From positions 372,001-436,000 of the forward strand of contig NZ_MSCJ01000003.1 of the NCBI RefSeq assembly GCF_002954615.1: a DNA stretch of 64,000 nucleotides. Direction: 5' to 3'. The translations under genes were made by a program, and so were the position numbers. Source of the DNA: Photobacterium angustum. GTDB lineage: Bacteria; Pseudomonadota; Gammaproteobacteria; Enterobacterales; Vibrionaceae. The notes under the pieces are model-generated. The model saw only the letters and a list, made by a program, of their open reading frames with translations, ran no database searches and was not told the origin of the DNA. How positions within the stretch are numbered: the stretch's first letter is position 1; each line of letters opens with the position of its first letter. Positions 4,018 through 64,000 of the stretch are shown one piece after another.

Positions 4018-4596
4018 GTGTTGGCTAGGTTGTTCTATGTATTAGGTGCATCGGGGGCGGGCAAAGATTCTCTTATCAATGCGGTTCGAGAAAGTTTAAG
4101 TGAGCGATTGATGATCGCACATCGATATATTACTCGACCTGCATTTATGGGGAACGAAAATCATATCGCGCTATTAGACACCGAATTTGATTTACGTATT
4201 CATCGTGGGTTATTTGTCATGCACTGGCAGGCGAATGGCTGTCGATATGGCGTTGGCAATGAAGTGGATGATTGGCTCAATAAGGGATTGGATGTCATGG
4301 TTAATGGCTCCAGAGCTTATTTAGAAACCGCCAAGGCACGATTTGGTGAACAACTTCAAGTGGTGTGGATCTCAGTCAGCCCTGAAGTTCTAGAGCAACG
4401 GTTACAGCTTCGAGGGCGAGAAAGTGAAGATGAGATAACACAACGTTTGGAGCGAGCAGTGGCTTATGACGCTGTAAGACCACCATGTGCAATTGTGGTT
4501 GATAATAGTGGCTCTCTTCAAAGCAGTACAGAGCAGTTTCTTGCTCAGATGAAATATGCCGTGTACGAGTCTCAATCAAAAAGCGTAGTGGGTTAA
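4018..4596 (+). CDS. phnN: PhnN, ribose 1,5-bisphosphate phosphokinase
   Basis: Kinase that turns ribose 1,5-bisphosphate into PRPP, returning the sugar of the C-P lyase pathway to nucleotide metabolism. The 192-residue protein has a guanylate-kinase-like fold with a P-loop GASGAGKD near the N-terminus and the downstream HRYITRPA stretch typical of PhnN. The start is GTG, 5 nt after AAAGGAG (4006-4012). It is followed 2 bp later by phnP. No phnO acetyltransferase lies between phnN and phnP, unlike E. coli. Confidence 0.92.
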   Translation: MLARLFYVLGASGAGKDSLINAVRESLSERLMIAHRYITRPAFMGNENHIALLDTEFDLRIHRGLFVMHWQANGCRYGVGNEVDDWLNKGLDVMVNGSRAYLETAKARFGEQLQVVWISVSPEVLEQRLQLRGRESEDEITQRLERAVAYDAVRPPCAIVVDNSGSLQSSTEQFLAQMKYAVYESQSKSVVG

Positions 4597-4598
4597 TT

Positions 4599-5366
4599 AT
4601 GTTATCACTGACATTACTCGGCACAGGTGCCGCTGGTGGTGTTCCCCTATATGGTTGTCATTGCTCTGCATGTGAGGCTGCAACCCATGATCATAATCTC
4701 GAAAGAAAACCCTGTTCGGCGATGATTGAGTGGGGAGATGAGCAGAATAAAAAGCGTTTGCTCATTGATGCAGGCATTATGGATCTTCATAAGCGTTTTT
4801 CAGTTGGCTCATATATTGGCTTTTTGCTCACTCATTTTCATGTAGATCATGTTCAAGGCTTGTTCCATCTGCGTTGGGGAAATGGCGCTTTAATTCCTGT
4901 CTGGTGCCCTAATGATCCTTTAGGTTGCGCTGATCTACTGAAACATTCTGGCTGTTTAGATTTTCGTTCGTATCTTCATCATGGAGTACCTTTTAATGTC
5001 GAAGGATTGAAAATCACACCACTCTCGATGCAACACTCCAAACCTACGTTTGGGTATTTGTTTGAGTTTGATGGAAATACCGTCGCTTACTTAACAGATA
5101 CCGATGGTTTACCTCTTGAGACTGAGCAGTATTTATTGTCAGTAAATAAACTTGATGCATTAGTGCTAGATTGCTCTTTTCCACCGGCATTAGAACGAGG
5201 TAATCATAGCGATATTGATACAGCCTTTGATGTTTATGAGCGCCTACTACCAAAGCAATTTATCATTACCCATATAGGACATGAATTAGATTGTTGGCTG
5301 CAAGATAACCAAGTCCCTAGCTCGTTAGTTATTGGTTGTGATGGGCACAAAGTGGATTTGATTTAA
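4599..5366 (+). CDS. phnP: PhnP, 5-phospho-ribosyl 1,2-cyclic phosphate phosphodiesterase
   Basis: Metallo-beta-lactamase-fold phosphodiesterase that opens the cyclic ribose phosphate released by PhnJ, feeding PhnN. The metal motif THFHVDHVQG is present, and an N-terminal Cys-rich stretch (YGCHCSAC) fits the extra zinc site of PhnP. 255 residues is the normal length. It is the last gene of the phn operon here. I see no clear intrinsic terminator directly after it. The 258 bp that follow (5367-5624) hold nothing I can support. Confidence 0.94.
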   Translation: MLSLTLLGTGAAGGVPLYGCHCSACEAATHDHNLERKPCSAMIEWGDEQNKKRLLIDAGIMDLHKRFSVGSYIGFLLTHFHVDHVQGLFHLRWGNGALIPVWCPNDPLGCADLLKHSGCLDFRSYLHHGVPFNVEGLKITPLSMQHSKPTFGYLFEFDGNTVAYLTDTDGLPLETEQYLLSVNKLDALVLDCSFPPALERGNHSDIDTAFDVYERLLPKQFIITHIGHELDCWLQDNQVPSSLVIGCDGHKVDLI

Positions 5367-56551: not shown

Positions 56552-56901
56552 GAGTAAATATTCGCAATTAGTATTACGTTATTGTTTTTAATTTCTTCAA
56601 GTTATTAGTCATCTGCTGATTTGATCTTCTTCGCGTCAAAAAAGTATCGTTGGTTATCAAAAAACAATATTTTTCTGAAAGCAGGTCTAAACTTTGAACG
56701 TTGCTCTATATTGGGTGCGCCAAATAAATAACGATAGCTATGTCACAAATTTGAACCAATCAAAGACCGCTTCCGCGTGCCGTAATAACTTTCTGTTACA
56801 TCTCGAAAAGTTGAAATTATACAAGCTCCGTTATGCTCCACGCATCTTAGGCGCTCTTATTGAAGTAAACGCCTATCCAATGTCGATTTATGAGTAATAA
56901 A

Positions 56902-59100
56902 ATGAAAAAAACATCTCTATTTGCATTGAGTGCAGTGGCACTGTCTTGCGCAATTAGCTTTACCGCTCACGCTGGTGACAAAATGGTTAACCCTGAAGGC
57001 GGGGTTGTTGTGGGTTACTGGCATAACTGGGCTGACGGCCAAGGTTATAAAATGGGTAATGCACCTGCGATGTCACTAAAAGACATTAACCCAATGTATA
57101 ACGTGGTTGATGTTTCTTTCATGAAAGTTTACGACGTGGCTGAAGGCCGTATTCCGACGTTTCATTTAGATGCGGAAACGGGTTTAACAGAGCAGCAATT
57201 CATCGACCAAATTAAAGAGCTTAACGATCAAGGTCGCTCTGTGCTTATCGCACTAGGTGGCGCTGATGCGCACGTTGAAATGAAAACAGGCGACGAGCAA
57301 GCATTCGCTGATGAAATCATTCGTTTAACGGATCTATACGGTTTCGATGGTTTAGATATCGACCTTGAGCAAGCAGCGATTGATGCGGCTGATAACCAAA
57401 CAGTTATTCCAGCGGCACTACGTATGGTTAAAGATCACTACCGTGCACAAGGTAAAAACTTCCTTATTACCATGGCACCAGAGTTCCCGTACCTAACAGA
57501 ATCTGGTAAATACATTCCTTACATCACAGGTCTTGAAGGTTACTACGACTGGATCAACCCGCAGTTTTATAACCAAGGTGGTGACGGCGTTTACGTTGAA
57601 GGCATTGGCTGGATTGCACAAAGTAAAGATGAGCTAAAAGAAGAGTTCATTTACTACATGTCGGATTCATTAATCAACGGTACTCGAGGTTTCACTAAGA
57701 TCCCACACGACAAACTTGTATTTGGTATTCCAACTAACATTGATGCCGCAGCAACAGGTTACGTGCAAGATCCACAAGATTTGTTTAATGCATTCAAACG
57801 CCTTGAAGCACAATCTCAGCCACTACGTGGGGTAATGACATGGTCTATCAACTGGGATATCGGTACTAACGCTGCAGGTCAAGCGTACAACAGCAGCTTT
57901 ATTAACACTTATGGCCCATTCATTCACAGCCAAGTACCACCTGTTGTTCAACCGGGTAAACCTGTGATCATGGGTGTAACGGATGCTCGCGTTCAGCACC
58001 GCACAAACTTTGATGCAATGGCTGGCGTAACAGCAACAGACAAAGAAGACGGCACATTAACATCTGCAATTAACGTATCAGGCTCGGTAGATACACAACG
58101 TGTAGGCGAGTATGTACTAACTTACTCAGTATCAGATTCAGACAACAATGAAACCGTATCACCACGTAAAGTGACCGTATTTAGCGCATTACCAACCTTC
58201 GCTGGTGTGGCAAATGCAGTTGTGAAAATTGGTGAAAACTTCGATGTAATGGCTGGCGTATCAGCATCGGATGCAGAAGATGGCGATCTAACGGCAAACA
58301 TCAAAGTATCTGGCACAGTAAACACTGCGGTTGCGGGTCAATACGAACTTGTTTACTCAATCACAGACAGCGCAAACCAAACAGTAACTGTGAAGCGTAC
58401 TGTGGTGGTTAACGATGGCTCTATCGTATGTACCAACCCATGGAAAGCGGATGCAACCTACGTTGAAGGTGATGTAGTTAGCCATAACGGTAAAGATTGG
58501 CAAGCTGGCTGGTGGACACAAGGTGACGAACCAGGCACAACGGGTGAGTGGGGTGTTTGGCGTGAAGCGGGCGATAGCGATTGTGGCGGCGTTGTACCAC
58601 CACAACCAGAAGCGGATTTCACGGCATCTCTATCTGGCGTAAACAGTAGCTACAAGATCACTAACGGTACAGCGACACTGAACCTGTCTTACACTGCGAA
58701 CAAAGCAAGTTCTGTACAGATTGATGTGATAGACGCAATGGGCTACCCAGTAAACGGCGGTAACTTCACGGCTGATTTTGCAGCTAACAGCGCAATCAAA
58801 TTAGTACTTGATAACGTTTCAGAAGGTACGCACTCACTACGCATGATCGCACAGTCAAAAGGTGAGCAAGTGGAATCTCGTCACCAGTTTGTATTAGAAG
58901 AGCAAGGTACAGTTGAGCCACCAGTAACCGACGTTCCTGCTTATGAAGCGGGTAAAGCGTACCAAGCGGGCGACCAAGTATTAGGTACAGACGGTAACGT
59001 ATACCAATGTAAACCATGGCCTTACACGGGTTGGTGTGCAAACGCTTCATACGCACCGGGTTCAAGCCAATACTGGGCTGACGCATGGGATAAGCTGTAA
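56902..59100 (+). CDS. Secreted GH18 chitinase with Ig-like and two chitin-binding modules
   Basis: About 732 residues. ATG 56902 starts a typical signal peptide (MKKTSLFALSAVALSCAI); ATG 56890 adds only four residues. The GH18 barrel (~35-350) has the active-site block FDGLDIDLE near 149-156 and ALGGADA as its SxGG-like strand, like the ChiC/ChiD-type bacterial chitinases. Two DUF5011/Ig-like repeats follow (each with FDAMAGVTA or FDVMAGVSA). Then come a CBM5/12-like module (GKDWQAGWWTQG), a Pro-rich linker, another Ig-like part and a C-terminal module with YQCKPWPYTGWC (CBM73/CBM5-like). Extracellular chitin degradation. Confidence 0.93.
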   Translation: MKKTSLFALSAVALSCAISFTAHAGDKMVNPEGGVVVGYWHNWADGQGYKMGNAPAMSLKDINPMYNVVDVSFMKVYDVAEGRIPTFHLDAETGLTEQQFIDQIKELNDQGRSVLIALGGADAHVEMKTGDEQAFADEIIRLTDLYGFDGLDIDLEQAAIDAADNQTVIPAALRMVKDHYRAQGKNFLITMAPEFPYLTESGKYIPYITGLEGYYDWINPQFYNQGGDGVYVEGIGWIAQSKDELKEEFIYYMSDSLINGTRGFTKIPHDKLVFGIPTNIDAAATGYVQDPQDLFNAFKRLEAQSQPLRGVMTWSINWDIGTNAAGQAYNSSFINTYGPFIHSQVPPVVQPGKPVIMGVTDARVQHRTNFDAMAGVTATDKEDGTLTSAINVSGSVDTQRVGEYVLTYSVSDSDNNETVSPRKVTVFSALPTFAGVANAVVKIGENFDVMAGVSASDAEDGDLTANIKVSGTVNTAVAGQYELVYSITDSANQTVTVKRTVVVNDGSIVCTNPWKADATYVEGDVVSHNGKDWQAGWWTQGDEPGTTGEWGVWREAGDSDCGGVVPPQPEADFTASLSGVNSSYKITNGTATLNLSYTANKASSVQIDVIDAMGYPVNGGNFTADFAANSAIKLVLDNVSEGTHSLRMIAQSKGEQVESRHQFVLEEQGTVEPPVTDVPAYEAGKAYQAGDQVLGTDGNVYQCKPWPYTGWCANASYAPGSSQYWADAWDKL

Positions 59101-59123
59101 GTTTACCGATAGCTAAATAAACG

Positions 59124-59156
59124 AAAAGCCAGCATGTTAGTGCTGGCTTTTTGTTT
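59124..59156 (+). terminator. Intrinsic terminator after the third chitinase gene
   Basis: Ten-bp stem (AAAGCCAGCA with TGCTGGCTTT, 6-nt loop) followed by TTGTTTT. Confidence 0.88.
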
Positions 59157-59202
59157 TACTTTAGAGAACGTATTTAACAACGTTTGTGCGTAGTAGCTGA
59201 GT

Positions 59203-59272
59203 TAACTCATTATTGGACAAAAACTATTTAGACAGTTTGCCCTACTTAGGTTGGTAGGTATTAGGAAAAGTA
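59203..59272. repeat. ~70-bp repeat, copy A
   Basis: Related to 60074-60142. The last 21 bp (59252-59272) are identical to 60122-60142; the first part is clearly similar but diverged. It lies 75 bp past the stop of the minus-strand pseudogene. Confidence 0.7.
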
Positions 59273-59346
59273 GGGGTAAATCCTACTTAACTGGTTAGTC
59301 GGTCACTAAACTCACTTAAACCAAAACCGCTTATATTGTGAATGTT

Positions 59347-59991
59347 CTATGAATAAATTTCACGAATAGCATCTATTAACCCATATACAATCAAAGGATT
59401 GTCCACTCGTGCTTCTGGATGACAATACGCAATTACATATTTCTTGGGAGCTCTTTCACACCACCAAACTCCACGATTGGTTCTTTTCCATTCAAACTCA
59501 CAAAAACCTGCAATACCTTTAAAAAGGTCACCTGTGCCGCCACATATTGTGATATCAGGGTTATAAAGCAAAAATTGTCTTTCGATATAATTACTGTCTT
59601 CATTTGCAACTTTATTAAGAGAAGCGGTGTCAGTTGTATGTGTACCTGGTGATTTTTTTAAATTAATAGCACATATAGATTTAAGCGTAGACTTTCGTTC
59701 TTCTTCACTAATATGTTCCAAATCGTTCCAAGGTATATCACATTCAATATTTCTAATTCCGCGAACCCAACGAACAATATTATTCCATGTTTGAGGTCTA
59801 GCACCATTAGCAAGAAACTCTCTTAGATCCCAGCCTCCTCCATCTGGGTCATTAACTTCCTTTAGTACGATGCAAATTTTAATATCAGAATTTAATTAAT
59901 CCTGTTCAGACACCAAACCATCTGATACGAAACCTTTTCTATTTTCTTTTCACTCAATAAAGAGATTATTTTCTTTATCAGTTATCGACAT
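59347..59991 (-). pseudogene. Broken gene with two in-frame stops, unknown family
   Basis: From ATG 59991 (AAGGAA just upstream) to the stop at 59347 one frame of 215 codons is kept, but it has TGA at 59950-59952 and TAA at 59896-59898. The protein continues sensibly through both stops (FIE-stop-KENRKGFVSDG, then SEQD-stop-LNSDIKICIVLKEV, then DLREFLANGARPQTWNNIV). No frameshift is needed. The intact 3' part could give at most ~124-185 residues. The order of a VLKE strand, a mid CGGTGD and a YCHPEAR near the end faintly resembles the uracil-DNA glycosylase fold; that is a guess. Confidence 0.72.
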
Positions 59992-60073
59992 ACAATTCCT
60001 TTAAACAGTATGTTATTAATTTCAGCTATTGTGACCGACTCAAAACTGGACAAAGACGAGTTAGCAGATAAGC

Positions 60074-60142
60074 TAACTCGTATATGGACAGAAGTGTGTT
60101 AGCACTCAACTCTATTTGAGCTGGTAGGTATTAGGAAAAGTA
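60074..60142. repeat. ~70-bp repeat, copy B
   Basis: Partner of 59203-59272. It begins in the right arm of a hairpin (CGAGTTAGC with GCTAACTCG, 60058-60081) and ends 32 bp before the stop of the next minus-strand gene. So each of the two neighbouring minus-strand genes has this element just past its 3' end. Confidence 0.7.
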
Positions 60143-60173
60143 ATAATAAATTAGTTAAGAGTTAAACTTCACA

Positions 60174-61025
60174 TCACTTTTTATTTAGATGCTCGTGGAC
60201 GATAATCATTTCAATGGGATTAAGTGGTCGTGTGGAGCTCACTTTATTACCATTAGATGTAACAACGCCACTGTCGATAAGAAGATTTAATATATAGTTT
60301 TTATCCTCTTTTTTCATCATACTTACTTGATCAAACGGCATTTTTTCATAAGCTGTGACATAACTTTTGAGTCCGTCTTTACCGATAGGAGCCTCACTAA
60401 CTTCACATTGTTTGTTCTCAATGCTTATAGCTTGAGTGTCAATAAAGGTATTTACATCGGATCCATCGAGGACGATGATTTTTCCACCTATATAATGAGG
60501 AAAGCCATTTAACTTTTCATAGTTTATTGAGTTTTCGAGTTCTTTAAATCCCTCACCCTCAATATTAAGGTTATGATTTACAACTTCAAAATAGAGGTCT
60601 ACTGTAAAGTTAAATAAAGCTGGGTATATATCTATATATTTCCCATAGTTGATGGTCACTTCTTTCAAATACTTTATAGTCTGCTTCGATTTTAGATTAC
60701 GTATTGCATAATTGACCACTTCTTGAGGCAACAAGCTCATGAGTTGTACTTCAGCATGCACCATTGTTACAGATGCAAGAGAAATCGCTTTAGAAGAATT
60801 AAGTAACTCTGATTCGTGAGTAGCAAAATTTCTTAGTGCTTTTAGAGCTCGATAACGTTTGTTTTTGCCAAAATTAACCGCTTTTACTTTTTCCAACTTC
60901 TCGCATGCACTGCACATTACAGAGAGTAATTCTTTAAGATCATCTGCATCCGATGAAGCACAGTACTTTAAATATTTGTTGAAGAACCGGGATAACTCTA
61001 TTTCACAACTTTTTAGAGGGGTCAT
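60174..61025 (-). CDS. Unknown protein with a HEPN-like RxxxxH motif
   Basis: 283 residues, not recognised. The N-terminal half is helical. Near residues 68-73 it has ALRNFATHE, an R-x4-H motif of the kind seen in HEPN ribonucleases and related domains. The C-terminal half looks mixed alpha/beta (GGKIIVLDGSDVNTF), and the end (NYILNLLIDSGVV, then MIIVHEHL) could be a small winged-helix-like part. No signal peptide. A HEPN reading is inference from one short motif. Its neighbour downstream is a pseudogene carrying the same trailing repeat. Confidence 0.6.
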   Translation of the reverse strand: MTPLKSCEIELSRFFNKYLKYCASSDADDLKELLSVMCSACEKLEKVKAVNFGKNKRYRALKALRNFATHESELLNSSKAISLASVTMVHAEVQLMSLLPQEVVNYAIRNLKSKQTIKYLKEVTINYGKYIDIYPALFNFTVDLYFEVVNHNLNIEGEGFKELENSINYEKLNGFPHYIGGKIIVLDGSDVNTFIDTQAISIENKQCEVSEAPIGKDGLKSYVTAYEKMPFDQVSMMKKEDKNYILNLLIDSGVVTSNGNKVSSTRPLNPIEMIIVHEHLNKK

Positions 61026-61245
61026 GATAAAAACTCATTATTAATACTGTTGCGTATTTTAATCGAGTTAGCCCACCAGTGGAAAGAGTTTAACACTTAA
61101 CAGCTTATTAATTAGTATTATTACCTTCATACGAATGCACATATATTAATTACAATTTTCATTTCGTTTATAGACATCATGAATTTAAATAGCAGCTTTT
61201 AGGTATAAAGAGAGTAAGAATGTAAAAATCGGAATGTTAAATACG

Positions 61246-61309
61246 AAAAAACCTCGATTGGTGGTCGAGGTTTTTTCTATTACGTACAAGACGCACGCGA
61301 TTCAACGGT
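61246..61309 (-). ncRNA. Candidate antitoxin small RNA (~64 nt)
   Basis: Transcribed leftward from about 61306-61309 (set by the promoter at 61313-61341) to an intrinsic terminator. The terminator has stem CCTCGA/TCGAGG (61252-61257 with 61265-61270), flanked by A and T runs, with six T (61246-61251) at the 3' end. The first ~15 nt of the RNA are perfectly complementary to 61658-61672 in the leader of the small-peptide mRNA, because 61292-61306 repeats that sequence (CGCACGCGATTCAAC). This matches IstR-1/OrzO-type antitoxins. Confidence 0.65.
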
Positions 61310-61312
61310 TCC

Positions 61313-61341
61313 AATATATGATAATTGATAATGTAGTGCAA
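61313..61341 (-). promoter_or_regulatory. Promoter of the candidate small RNA
   Basis: Minus strand: TTGCAC (61336-61341), a 17-bp spacer, then TATATT (61313-61318). This puts the RNA start at about 61306-61309. Confidence 0.6.
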
Positions 61342-61430
61342 TACATATTGAAGTTAGGGCGGCGTATTATACTGATATTTCAGCAGAGGAACAGTCACAA
61401 AATAATTATTTTTATAGTGTTATCAGTGTA

Positions 61431-61459
61431 TTGTGCGTGCCTAATTTTACAGATATACT
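61431..61459 (+). promoter_or_regulatory. Candidate promoter of the small-peptide mRNA
   Basis: TTGTGC (61431-61436), a 17-bp spacer, TATACT (61454-61459). Start near 61466, giving a leader of about 287 nt. No LexA-type box was found. Confidence 0.45.
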
Positions 61460-61637
61460 CCTCAAACTGGTTGAGCGTATGTAAGTTTTAGACTTCCACT
61501 TACCTGAATGGTAATTATTATACAAACAGCGAGCAAAAATACGTAATGACCGTAGAAATACCGTCTTAACGAAATTTTCTTAGCAGAGTTTTAGGCAATA
61601 AGCCAAGTCTGTTTGCAGCGAGTGGTGTCGGCAAATA

Positions 61638-61745
61638 CGCCCAAATCGGAAGTCGGGCGCACGCGATTCAACAGTCAGCAGGAAACCTACTTGGCGAACC
61701 CAAGGGCGAACTAGGCGAGTCCAGTCTTCCTCCTAACCAGAGGAA
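61638..61745 (+). promoter_or_regulatory. Structured leader with antisense target and SD-blocking hairpin
   Basis: Three hairpins in order: CGCCC/GGGCG (61638-61659); CCTA plus CTTGG with CCAAG plus TAGG (61686-61715); and TTCCTC/GAGGAA (61727-61745), which pairs the Shine-Dalgarno GAGG (61740-61743). The 15-nt target of the divergent RNA (61658-61672) lies between the first two. Confidence 0.6.
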
Positions 61746-61752
61746 TTGTACA

Positions 61753-61848
61753 ATGAAACCTTACCCTATGTGGAAAGAAGAAGTTGGCAAATTACTGTGT
61801 GGTGCGCTTGCGAAAGTCATCATCGGTAAGTTGTTCATGATGTTTTAA
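61753..61848 (+). CDS. 31-residue hydrophobic/amphipathic peptide, candidate type I toxin
   Basis: ATG 61753, 9 nt after GAGG, to TAA 61846-61848, followed 28 bp later by a strong terminator. After a short polar start (MKPYPMWKEEVGK) the rest (LLCGALAKVIIG, then KLFMMF) can form one amphipathic or membrane helix with regularly placed Lys, in the manner of TisB. It is much too short for most gene callers. The leader, blocked Shine-Dalgarno, terminator and complementary divergent RNA together support a real expressed gene. Toxicity is inference; I know no homologue by name. Confidence 0.68.
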   Translation: MKPYPMWKEEVGKLLCGALAKVIIGKLFMMF

Positions 61849-61875
61849 GCATCATTAGGCGATTTAAGACGATCT

Positions 61876-61907
61876 AGCCCCGTTGCTTTTGCTTCGGGGC
61901 TTTTTTC
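61876..61907 (+). terminator. Intrinsic terminator after the small-peptide gene
   Basis: Seven-bp stem AGCCCCG/CGGGGCT with a 12-nt loop and six T. Confidence 0.88.
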
Positions 61908-62435
61908 TATATGTCATTTTAATATCTTTCCATTACAACACTAAAGAAATATAGTTAGTAATCCTTTTAACTCACCCTCTCAGACATTAATAAAATCAAA
62001 AAATAAAACTAATCCAAAATTACGTTAATACGATATGAACGAGTAAAAGCACTAAGTAGAAATGGAACAGAAACGTGTTACATAAATTTGGTTAATAATA
62101 GCAGAATTTAACATATTGGAAATTCAGGGCACTTTTTCACCCGAACTACCACTAATAACCCACCCTCTGATCATTACCGATGTTTTTAGCGGATAAATTT
62201 GATTTCTCACAGTTTTTTGTCTAGAAATTTAGATGCGCATCAGGTTTTATAAAGCATTTGACTATCTTATGTACTATAAGTGGTTTTAGGCTTATAAATC
62301 ACTGTTATTACTTGTTTGGATAGTTGTAAAGGTGAGTGGCAGGACAATTAAAATAGAGATAAAGCCCTTATCTGAAAAGCATCACTTCTCACTAGAAGGG
62401 CAAGGTAATGGTTAAGTCACTAATAGCGAAATAAA
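61908..62435. other. Gene-free region before the reductase gene end
   Basis: 528 bp with no supportable gene or RNA. It contains a 15-bp match to the btsT upstream repeat (about 62329-62343), judged chance because the 20-bp periodicity is missing. Confidence 0.4.
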
Positions 62436-62463
62436 CAAAAAGCCAGCATGGTCTATGCTGGCG
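62436..62463 (-). terminator. Intrinsic terminator after the flavin reductase gene
   Basis: Minus strand stem GCCAGCAT/ATGCTGGC with a 5-nt loop, followed by TTTTTG. Confidence 0.85.
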
Positions 62464-62470
62464 ATTTTGT

Positions 62471-63508
62471 TCAGACGAGTGTGTTTAGCATACCTACATC
62501 GTAAGGTGTCAGGTTTTTGTTTTGACGTGTTTTTTCAACGTAATCTGAGTTAGCAATTAATGGGCGACCGATAGCCACTAAATCAGCATCATTATTTAGT
62601 AGTGCCTCTCTCGCACTCTCTGAGTTATAGCCGCCACAGGCAATAACGCTGCCATGATAATGTTGACGAATATAGTGTGTAACCGTGCTTTGTAAATGAT
62701 CTTGATAGCTGTCATCGAACATACCGGTATGAACGTATGCCAAATCATATTGATTTAACTGCTTTAATACATAATCAAAAACGGGTTTATCGCGTTCGTC
62801 ATGTTCAATATTTAAATAAGCAACAGGCGATAAGCGTACACCCACGAATTGAATTTGCTGTTTAACGGCATTGATGACATCAAATAAAATACGGCTCATA
62901 TTTTCGGGGCTTTGTCCCCAATGATCGTTACGACGATTCGTATCCCAATGGAGAAATTGATCTAATAAATAGCCATTAGCGGCATGTATTTCAACGCCAT
63001 CAAATCCTGCTTCTTTGGCATATTTTGCGGCTTTCGCAAAATCGTTAATCACAGTCTGAATATCAGCAGGTGTCATTTCTTTAGGCTCTTCATACTGTAA
63101 ATTATCAGTCCGCTTTACACGCCCTGTAAGACCAACCGCTGAAGGGGCTAATGGCTTGTTTCCATTTAGGTAAATAGGGTGTGATACTCGGCCTGTATGC
63201 CACAATTGGGCAAATATTTTACCGCCATTTTCATGCACTTTTTGTGTAACTTGCTTCCAGCCTGCAACATGTTCTTGGTTAAAAATAGCGGGCGAATTAG
63301 GGTAACCCTGCGCGGTTGGCGATATCATTGTACATTCAGTAATGATCAATCCCGTATTGGCTCGGCGAGCATAATAGTCAGCCATCTCAGGAGTTGGGAT
63401 GAAATCGTCTGTCGCCATGCATCGGCTCATTGGCGCCATAACAATACGATTTTTTAAGATCAGATCCTGACTAAGTTGATAGGGGCTAAATAAAATATCT
63501 TGTGTCAT
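62471..63508 (-). CDS. Old yellow enzyme family NADH:flavin oxidoreductase (alkene reductase)
   Basis: 345-residue FMN barrel enzyme. Recognised from LKNRIVMAPMSRC at the start, AQLWHTGRVSHP, the substrate-anion His/Asn-like pair in GVEIHAANGYLLDQFL, and the FMN phosphate region (ACGGYNSE, then ADLVAIGRPLIAN). It reduces activated C=C bonds of electrophiles with NAD(P)H, as NemA does. The divergent LysR gene starting 229 bp away (63738) probably controls it. Confidence 0.92.
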   Translation of the reverse strand: MTQDILFSPYQLSQDLILKNRIVMAPMSRCMATDDFIPTPEMADYYARRANTGLIITECTMISPTAQGYPNSPAIFNQEHVAGWKQVTQKVHENGGKIFAQLWHTGRVSHPIYLNGNKPLAPSAVGLTGRVKRTDNLQYEEPKEMTPADIQTVINDFAKAAKYAKEAGFDGVEIHAANGYLLDQFLHWDTNRRNDHWGQSPENMSRILFDVINAVKQQIQFVGVRLSPVAYLNIEHDERDKPVFDYVLKQLNQYDLAYVHTGMFDDSYQDHLQSTVTHYIRQHYHGSVIACGGYNSESAREALLNNDADLVAIGRPLIANSDYVEKTRQNKNLTPYDVGMLNTLV

Positions 63509-63737
63509 TACAGGTTACCTTTCTCGCTTTTATATCGTTCACAGTAGGCACTTCGGTTTTATGTTGGATGATGATTGAGTGTGGTTACTGCGTGAGGGTG
63601 TGACTATATACCGACACTGAAAGGAATGTCAGACCGATAAAATGAATACCATCTATTCCATTTTGGAATGCAAAAGAGCCAAAAAACGTGCCATTATGTC
63701 TTTATCTTGAATAAGGGTTTAATGCATGGAGTAGGTA

Positions 63738-64000
63738 ATGGATCAATTAGGCGCAATGCGAGCCTTTATTCGTGTTGTACAAACCGGGAGCTTTTCTGCT
63801 ACTGCGCGTGAGCAAAATACAACTCAAGCAACAATAAGTAAAAAAATAGCTGCGTTGGAGCATAAGCTAGAAGGTAAATTGCTGACAAGAAGCAGTCGAG
63901 ACCTTGCTTTAACTGAGGTTGGCGCTGAATATTATGAACGATGTGTTGCTATTATTAGTGAATTAGATGAGGCGGAATCTAATGTGCGAGCACATCGAGC
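63738..64000 (+). CDS. LysR-family transcriptional regulator (N-terminal part, cut by window end)
   Basis: The frame runs off the right edge after ~87 residues. The N-terminal winged helix-turn-helix of LysR proteins is clear (MRAFIRVVQTGSFSATA, then TTQATISKKIAALE, then SRDLALTEVG). ATG 63738 follows GGAG (63728-63731). It is divergent from the alkene reductase gene, the usual layout of a LysR regulator and its target. Its ligand-binding domain lies outside the window. Confidence 0.93.
   Translation, partial: MDQLGAMRAFIRVVQTGSFSATAREQNTTQATISKKIAALEHKLEGKLLTRSSRDLALTEVGAEYYERCVAIISELDEAESNVRAHR

Follow-up and report, generated by a model that had tools for sequence, protein, structure and literature searches.

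A probable divergent type I toxin–antitoxin pair of a new sequence family in three genera of Vibrionaceae

Is a short open reading frame (ORF) near one end of a 64,000-nucleotide stretch of Photobacterium angustum DNA (contig NZ_MSCJ01000003.1, positions 372,001 to 436,000; the window, in whose coordinates positions are given) a toxin gene governed by a small RNA predicted to diverge from it, and, if so, does the pair belong to a known family? Control of toxin mRNAs from a far-upstream standby site has been described for Escherichia coli pairs in PMC7708055 and PMC11264685. The former describes the tisB, zor and shoB mRNAs as made inactive and structured, with antitoxins that pair far upstream of the ribosome-binding site (RBS); standby is shown for tisB, where the site precedes the RBS by about 100 nt, and proposed for zor and shoB, with 5′ structure ahead of the pairing site.

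A sequence-only reading of the window had proposed that the locus follows the layout of tisB/istR and zorO/orzO, which holds as architecture and not as detected homology. We conclude that it is very probably a divergent type I toxin–antitoxin pair of a new sequence family; the decisive evidence for this reading is that two relatives in other genera keep the layout with paired changes in the RNA–leader duplex.

Results

Anatomy of the locus

The predicted toxin peptide, 31 residues long (MKPYPMWKEEVGKLLCGALAKVIIGKLFMMF), is encoded at 61753-61848 on the forward strand from an ATG start codon, as the sequence-only reading had it. Its Shine-Dalgarno (SD) sequence, AGAGGA at 61739-61744, is shut into a hairpin at 61727-61745 (+), also claimed before, in which 61727-61732 pair with 61740-61745 at -6.4 kcal/mol; an intrinsic terminator is predicted downstream at about 61876-61907 (+). 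On the reverse strand, a predicted antitoxin RNA gene at 61246-61309 comprises a promoter, a terminator and a 5′ pairing segment, an arrangement kept in both relatives. The predicted promoter (61313-61341, -) has a -35 box TTGCAC at 61341-61336, a spacer of 17 and a -10 box TATATT at 61318-61313, and the terminator (61246-61276, -), with a counterpart in both relatives, is a fold of -13.3 kcal/mol followed by a T run; the RNA would be about 61-67 nt long, according to the start chosen. Folding recovers the terminators that had been proposed for both transcripts, though a stricter pattern scan listed neither. The same scan, which accepted promoters from 9/12 upwards, passes over the proposed antitoxin promoter, which is present with 8/12 consensus positions. 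No Rfam family reached its gathering score in the window: the best match over the antitoxin was Bacillus ncr1015, at 32.6 bits with 60 needed (E 0.011), and at both relatives' loci no family came near its cut-off.

The 5′ end of this RNA (61289-61306, -) is predicted to pair with a site in the toxin leader (61655-61672, +; -98 to -81 from the start codon), the pairing segment lying about 350 bp upstream of its target and being divergently transcribed. The 15-nt complementarity noted earlier is exact, 61292-61306 against 61658-61672; as a direct repeat with at most two mismatches it occurs in these two places only in 64 kb, with 0.10 expected in shuffles, and once G-U pairs are allowed the duplex grows to 18 nt with two of them. 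When the contiguous partners of the leader (-130 to -1) on both strands of the 64 kb were ranked, leaving out the leader's own antisense, the antitoxin segment came first, with a weighted score of 16.6 and the next at 13.9. In RNAduplex, where bulges are allowed, the window pair has an energy of -35.0 kcal/mol, a value bettered by 4 of the window's 15,928 32-mers and attained in 2 of 2000 shuffles. In the first relative, Vibrio aquaticus, the value is -30.0, bettered by 3 of 698 32-mers taken outside the RNA region; in the second, Enterovibrio, one 32-mer of 696 does better, and it falls within the RNA region. None of 2000 shuffles attained the value in either relative. Energy alone does not make the pair unique; our case is built on the contiguous pairing and the relatives.

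Taken singly, the elements of the window are weak: the promoter scores 8/12, the scan lists neither promoter nor terminators, and the pairing energy has competitors. They might then be a random short ORF, an unrelated promoter and a coincidental 15-nt repeat, but this is contradicted by the relatives described below, where two further genera show the layout along with two-sided changes in the duplex and a peptide under purifying selection, and we regard such a coincidence as extremely improbable.

Two relatives keep the layout and change the duplex on both sides

A peptide search of 329 family genomes, 52 of the genus included, returned two true relatives with 62% identity over 26 residues (E 1.1e-6 and 4.7e-6): MSPYPKWKDELAKILCGALLKEIIVSFIKSLV (L018) and MSIYPKWKEELAKLVCSALLKVIINQLLNR (L019, its TTG start read as M). 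A degenerate pattern of the conserved residues, run over contigs of 84,980 species, identified them as Vibrio aquaticus BEI207 (L033) and, for the second, Enterovibrio sp. ZSDZ35 (L034), and matched besides one Bacteroidales contig (L035) that has no SD motif across 8 kb and that we took as chance. The Enterovibrio toxin gene has the start codon TTG.

Both relatives keep the open peptide frame, the divergent short RNA, the intrinsic terminator and the SD hairpin, whose GTCTTCCTC..AGAGGA is present in 3/3 members. Their antitoxin promoters, at the equivalent position, are TTGTAT-16-TATACT in V. aquaticus and TTGTAA-17-TACCAT in Enterovibrio. The family is known from only three members, and their predicted antitoxin promoters reach 8/12 each; from the chosen starts the RNAs would measure 67 nt in the window, 71 nt in V. 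aquaticus and 64 nt in Enterovibrio. Pairing begins at -98 from the start codon in the window, -96 in V. aquaticus and -95 in Enterovibrio, and extends over 19 nt in V. aquaticus and 17 nt in Enterovibrio. For each relative's leader, the top-scoring upstream segment is on the opposite strand, 332 and 305 bp upstream of the target, with an intrinsic terminator behind it. When contiguous partners are ranked over both strands of the contig sequence, 7.7 kb and 8 kb, this segment again comes first once the leader's own antisense is left out, the runners-up scoring 11.3 and 12.9.

The sequence-only reading had looked to Vibrionaceae relatives for co-variation of the pairing, or else for its loss or for frameshifts in the peptide. 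What we found is the opposite of loss: in both relatives the frame is open and the pairing keeps its position while its sequence has changed on both sides. With the gap placed so as to give the minimum count, two-sided changes that preserve pairing affect 6/16 positions between the window and V. aquaticus, 7/16 between the window and Enterovibrio, and 2/17 between V. aquaticus and Enterovibrio. Pairing scores with the own partner are 16.3-16.9 in the three members. With partners exchanged, the scores are only 5.6 for the window RNA with the leader of each relative, and 8.0 and 6.0 for the relatives' RNAs with the leader of the window. Between the two relatives themselves, there is partial cross-pairing (9.3 and 14.5), and the Enterovibrio RNA could pair with the V. 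aquaticus leader over 18 nt, including five G-U pairs.

These two-sided changes place the pairing segment among the variable parts of a leader with otherwise fixed elements, of which CGRGTGGTGYCG, CGGAAG and AGTCTTCCTC..AGAGGA are identical in all three. The conserved leader motif CGAGTGGTGTCG at 61619-61630 (+) may form a small hairpin according to the three-member alignment and consensus fold; this conserved GUGGUG hairpin lies 25-36 nt ahead of the pairing site, has one of its A-U pairs replaced by G-C through a double change in V. aquaticus, and could be a 5′ standby element. RNAalifold gives the leader a small covariation term (-0.99). By eye, the GUGGUG loop offers only a weak four-pair candidate for a pseudoknot, which we do not claim, and the signal for a conserved stem between the target and the SD hairpin is too faint for a claim.

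Where the toxin mRNA would start differs in clarity among the three. The predicted promoter is clear in Enterovibrio (TTTACA-17-TATAAT, 11/12) and plausible in V. aquaticus (TTGCAT-17-TATACT, 8/12, absent from the stricter scan). For the window, the choice between two candidates is not settled: TTGTGC-17-TATACT at 61431-61459 (+; 8/12) fits the leader of about 287 nt proposed before, and the relatives' geometry would favour a -10 box TATACT at 61368-61373 (+), whose best -35 box matches just 2/6 and which would give a leader of about 373 nt. In the relatives, toxin and antitoxin -10 boxes are 39 and 46 nt apart; TATACT at 61368 would make this distance 49.

The peptide frame is maintained

With the window peptide as reference, dN to the relatives is 0.24 and 0.34, and dS 1.48 and saturated; over all comparisons (codons 2-24, that is, 23 codons with 15-16 synonymous sites) dN is 0.19-0.34 and dS is 1.48 or saturated. 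The frame is thus maintained as protein, and by this measure the predicted toxin peptide is under purifying selection. The three peptides, of 31, 32 and 30 residues, share 13 residues that are invariant across the three genera, with Y, P, W, K, E and C among those conserved. The earlier description as hydrophobic or amphipathic stands in its first half: the window peptide is moderately hydrophobic (GRAVY 0.61; 0.32-0.61 for the three, with best 19-residue means of 1.43-1.86). Its second half finds no support, the helical moment over 21 residues being 0.09, which 4260 of 5000 shuffles equal or exceed; a low moment over 21 residues is common to all three peptides. None of the three matched any NCBIfam or Pfam model at E 10.

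Such moderate hydrophobicity and the conservation of Y, P, W, K, E and C would also suit a small non-toxic membrane or signalling peptide regulated by the RNA, in a divergent sRNA–mRNA pair without addiction. We consider this unlikely: a patchy occurrence in 3/329 genomes, together with the cassette-array and recombinase contexts set out below, fits addiction modules better than a housekeeping peptide, and several type I toxins are known to combine an SD hairpin with pairing at a distance.

The pair is rare

By peptide, by SD-hairpin pattern and by leader RNA model alike, three of the 329 family genomes carry the pair. The pattern GTCTTCCTCN{3,7}AGAGGA gave 11 matches there, namely the three family members and eight sites without such a peptide, with 3 for a reversed-pattern control; a fourth match of the leader RNA model (genome G139, E 0.006) has no such peptide or pairing. 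A search with the DNA of the locus turned up nothing convincing in the other 51 genomes of the genus, where it gave one match of 37 bases.

Weaker candidates were examined and set aside. Within the genus, the peptide search gave 14 weak matches besides the window's own: four with short frames (L004, L007, L008 and L014) look, by eye, like one conserved gene in the wrong frame, presumably of TatD type, and the ten others, in frames of 290-319 codons, all lack the SD hairpin motif. Two more matches of the family peptide search (L020, with two internal stops, and L021) lack it as well. A profile search of 394 genomes of the order gave six further weak matches, four rejected by eye and two (L037 and L040) without the SD motif; neither relative was among its matches, so that both are presumably outside that genome sample. 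One further match among 369 genomes of the class has an internal stop and no SD motif. No member was found in searches of plasmids (one 27-base match at E 0.9), phages (four records match the terminator region over 32 bases), viral contigs or E. coli genomes. No title or abstract opening in the literature searched names the family, which does not by itself establish its absence from print.

Variable and probably mobile contexts

In the window, the locus lies in a variable slot (59153-62145). The genome that matches its flanks best, G002, does so with 97% identity over 56890-59152 and 95% over 62146-64000. There the flanks are 1.4 kb apart with a RelA/SpoT-domain gene between them (L066 3422-4501, -; Pfam PF04607, E 1.5e-20); the slot is possibly a hot spot for toxin or defence genes.

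Several other features occur in and around the slot. The ORFs 60174-61025 and 59347-59721 (-) share it with the pair; the former, of 283 aa, has no match in Pfam, NCBIfam or PADLOC, and the latter, of 124 aa, none in Pfam or PADLOC. A 40-nt intergenic repeat, 80% identical between its copies at 59242-59281 and 60112-60151, flanks ORF 59347-59721, and sequence overlapping it matches elsewhere in the same genome and in the genus. Just 3′ of the locus, 61992-62073 is a dispersed intergenic repeat with many matches in genomes of the genus, and similar terminator-like inverted repeats (GCCAGCAT...) follow both flanking genes, at 59109-59156 and 62423-62462, with further occurrences in related genomes.

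The V. aquaticus pair occupies a single unit of what resembles a superintegron array, between a repeat ending at 4204 and one starting at 4876 (L033). A repeat pattern drawn from this contig itself picks out, over 7.7 kb, 13 right and 11 left halves similar to attC, and we take these repeats to be attC. The units to the left of the pair hold six ORFs of 90-278 aa, all on the minus strand; the antitoxin RNA thus runs in the direction of these ORFs and the toxin gene in the opposite one. The Enterovibrio pair has as its neighbour a gene for a tyrosine recombinase (Pfam Phage_integrase, 27.7 bits against 27.1), some 0.3 kb past the start of the antitoxin. After it come two genes, of 239 and 675 aa, without a match to any family, which we read as partners of the recombinase. 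The contexts of the pair are thus variable or probably mobile.

Discussion

By sequence, the leader has features comparable to those of known leaders, namely an SD hairpin, a pairing site at a distance of about 100 nt from the start codon, and the GUGGUG hairpin, which lead us to infer repression by standby blocking. Once transcribed, the toxin mRNA would have a long structured leader, its SD sequence shut in a hairpin ahead of the gene for a 31-residue, moderately hydrophobic, basic peptide. Ribosomes would most likely load at a distant standby site, as on tisB mRNA, where the conserved 5′ hairpin motif perhaps holds them, and would then open the SD hairpin. The 5′ end of the divergent RNA, about 64 nt long, would pair over 15-19 nt some 100 nt ahead of the start codon and so block ribosome loading, the duplex being marked, by analogy, for RNase III; for OrzO, 15 nt of continuous pairing suffice (PMC3919570). 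The peptide, likewise by analogy, probably disturbs the inner membrane, and the pair would serve as an addiction module against the loss of mobile or variable DNA.

A broader reading has, in our judgement, about an even chance of being right: that this is a mobile Vibrionaceae type I family, carried in integron cassettes and recombinase islands, that readdresses itself. Peptide, SD hairpin and 5′ motif would stay fixed as the addresses of RNA and target change together, and diverged copies would come to answer only their own antitoxin.

The pair might instead be a very diverged member of zor/orz or tisB/istR, with the mechanism as proposed here and the family not new. The architecture is the same, and PMC11264685 gives zor/orz a conserved GGAGTG/AG motif in the exposed leader, a pairing region that varies between copies and a -35 box, TTGCAA, common to zor and orz; in Enterovibrio, the -35 boxes of toxin and antitoxin overlap (TTACAA/TTGTAA). 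We nevertheless hold this quite improbable, given that none of the three peptides matches a family model, that the window and Enterovibrio leaders are unmatched in the E. coli collection (blastn, E 1), and that Rfam yields only a weak ohsC_RNA match (18.4, where gathering requires 50), which moreover lies on the strand that does not encode the antitoxin. Membership in tisB/istR or zor/orz is thus not shown, there being no NCBIfam or Pfam match, only sub-threshold Rfam matches and no good LexA box; the new family is set apart from zor/orz and tisB by family models, not by direct sequence comparison. Returning to the reading as a new family, the same layout in three Vibrionaceae genera, with no detected relation to the E. 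coli pairs, points to convergence or to an old plan. It also offers natural pairs with different pairing addresses as material on the evolution of standby repression and of antitoxin specificity.

The mechanism is most likely like those of tisB/istR-1 and zorO/orzO, by analogy of layout. The zorO/orzO pair of E. coli O157:H7 shares with the new pair a divergent RNA whose 5′ end pairs over 18 nt upstream of a sequestered RBS, a pairing region that varies between copies and a conserved GAG-type motif in the exposed leader. It differs in host family and context and in that the new peptide matches no family model. A common -35 box is described for zor and orz; the predicted -35 boxes of the new pair overlap in Enterovibrio and are adjacent in V. 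aquaticus, and no sharing is seen in the window, where the candidates stand apart.

In tisB/istR-1 of E. coli, the antitoxin also pairs far upstream, and a standby site lies about 100 nt before a sequestered RBS. No homology to it was detected, and the new pair has no LexA box better than two mismatches. The earlier statement that no LexA box is present holds down to one mismatch at all three loci; in the stretches scanned at the window locus there are three sites with two mismatches, one of them (61331-61346) in the divergent promoter region, and at neither relative's locus is there a site with two or fewer. We therefore see no clear sign of SOS control. With shoB/ohsC of E. coli, the new pair has in common a small peptide and an RNA that pairs far upstream of the RBS; it is unlike it in that the ohsC_RNA match falls below gathering and on the wrong strand for an antitoxin.

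Vibrio superintegrons carry protein toxin–antitoxin cassettes. The V. aquaticus pair would likewise be a self-contained addiction pair in a cassette, here with an RNA as the antitoxin. Type I pairs carried by integron cassettes would give cassette arrays an additional, RNA-based means of stabilisation.
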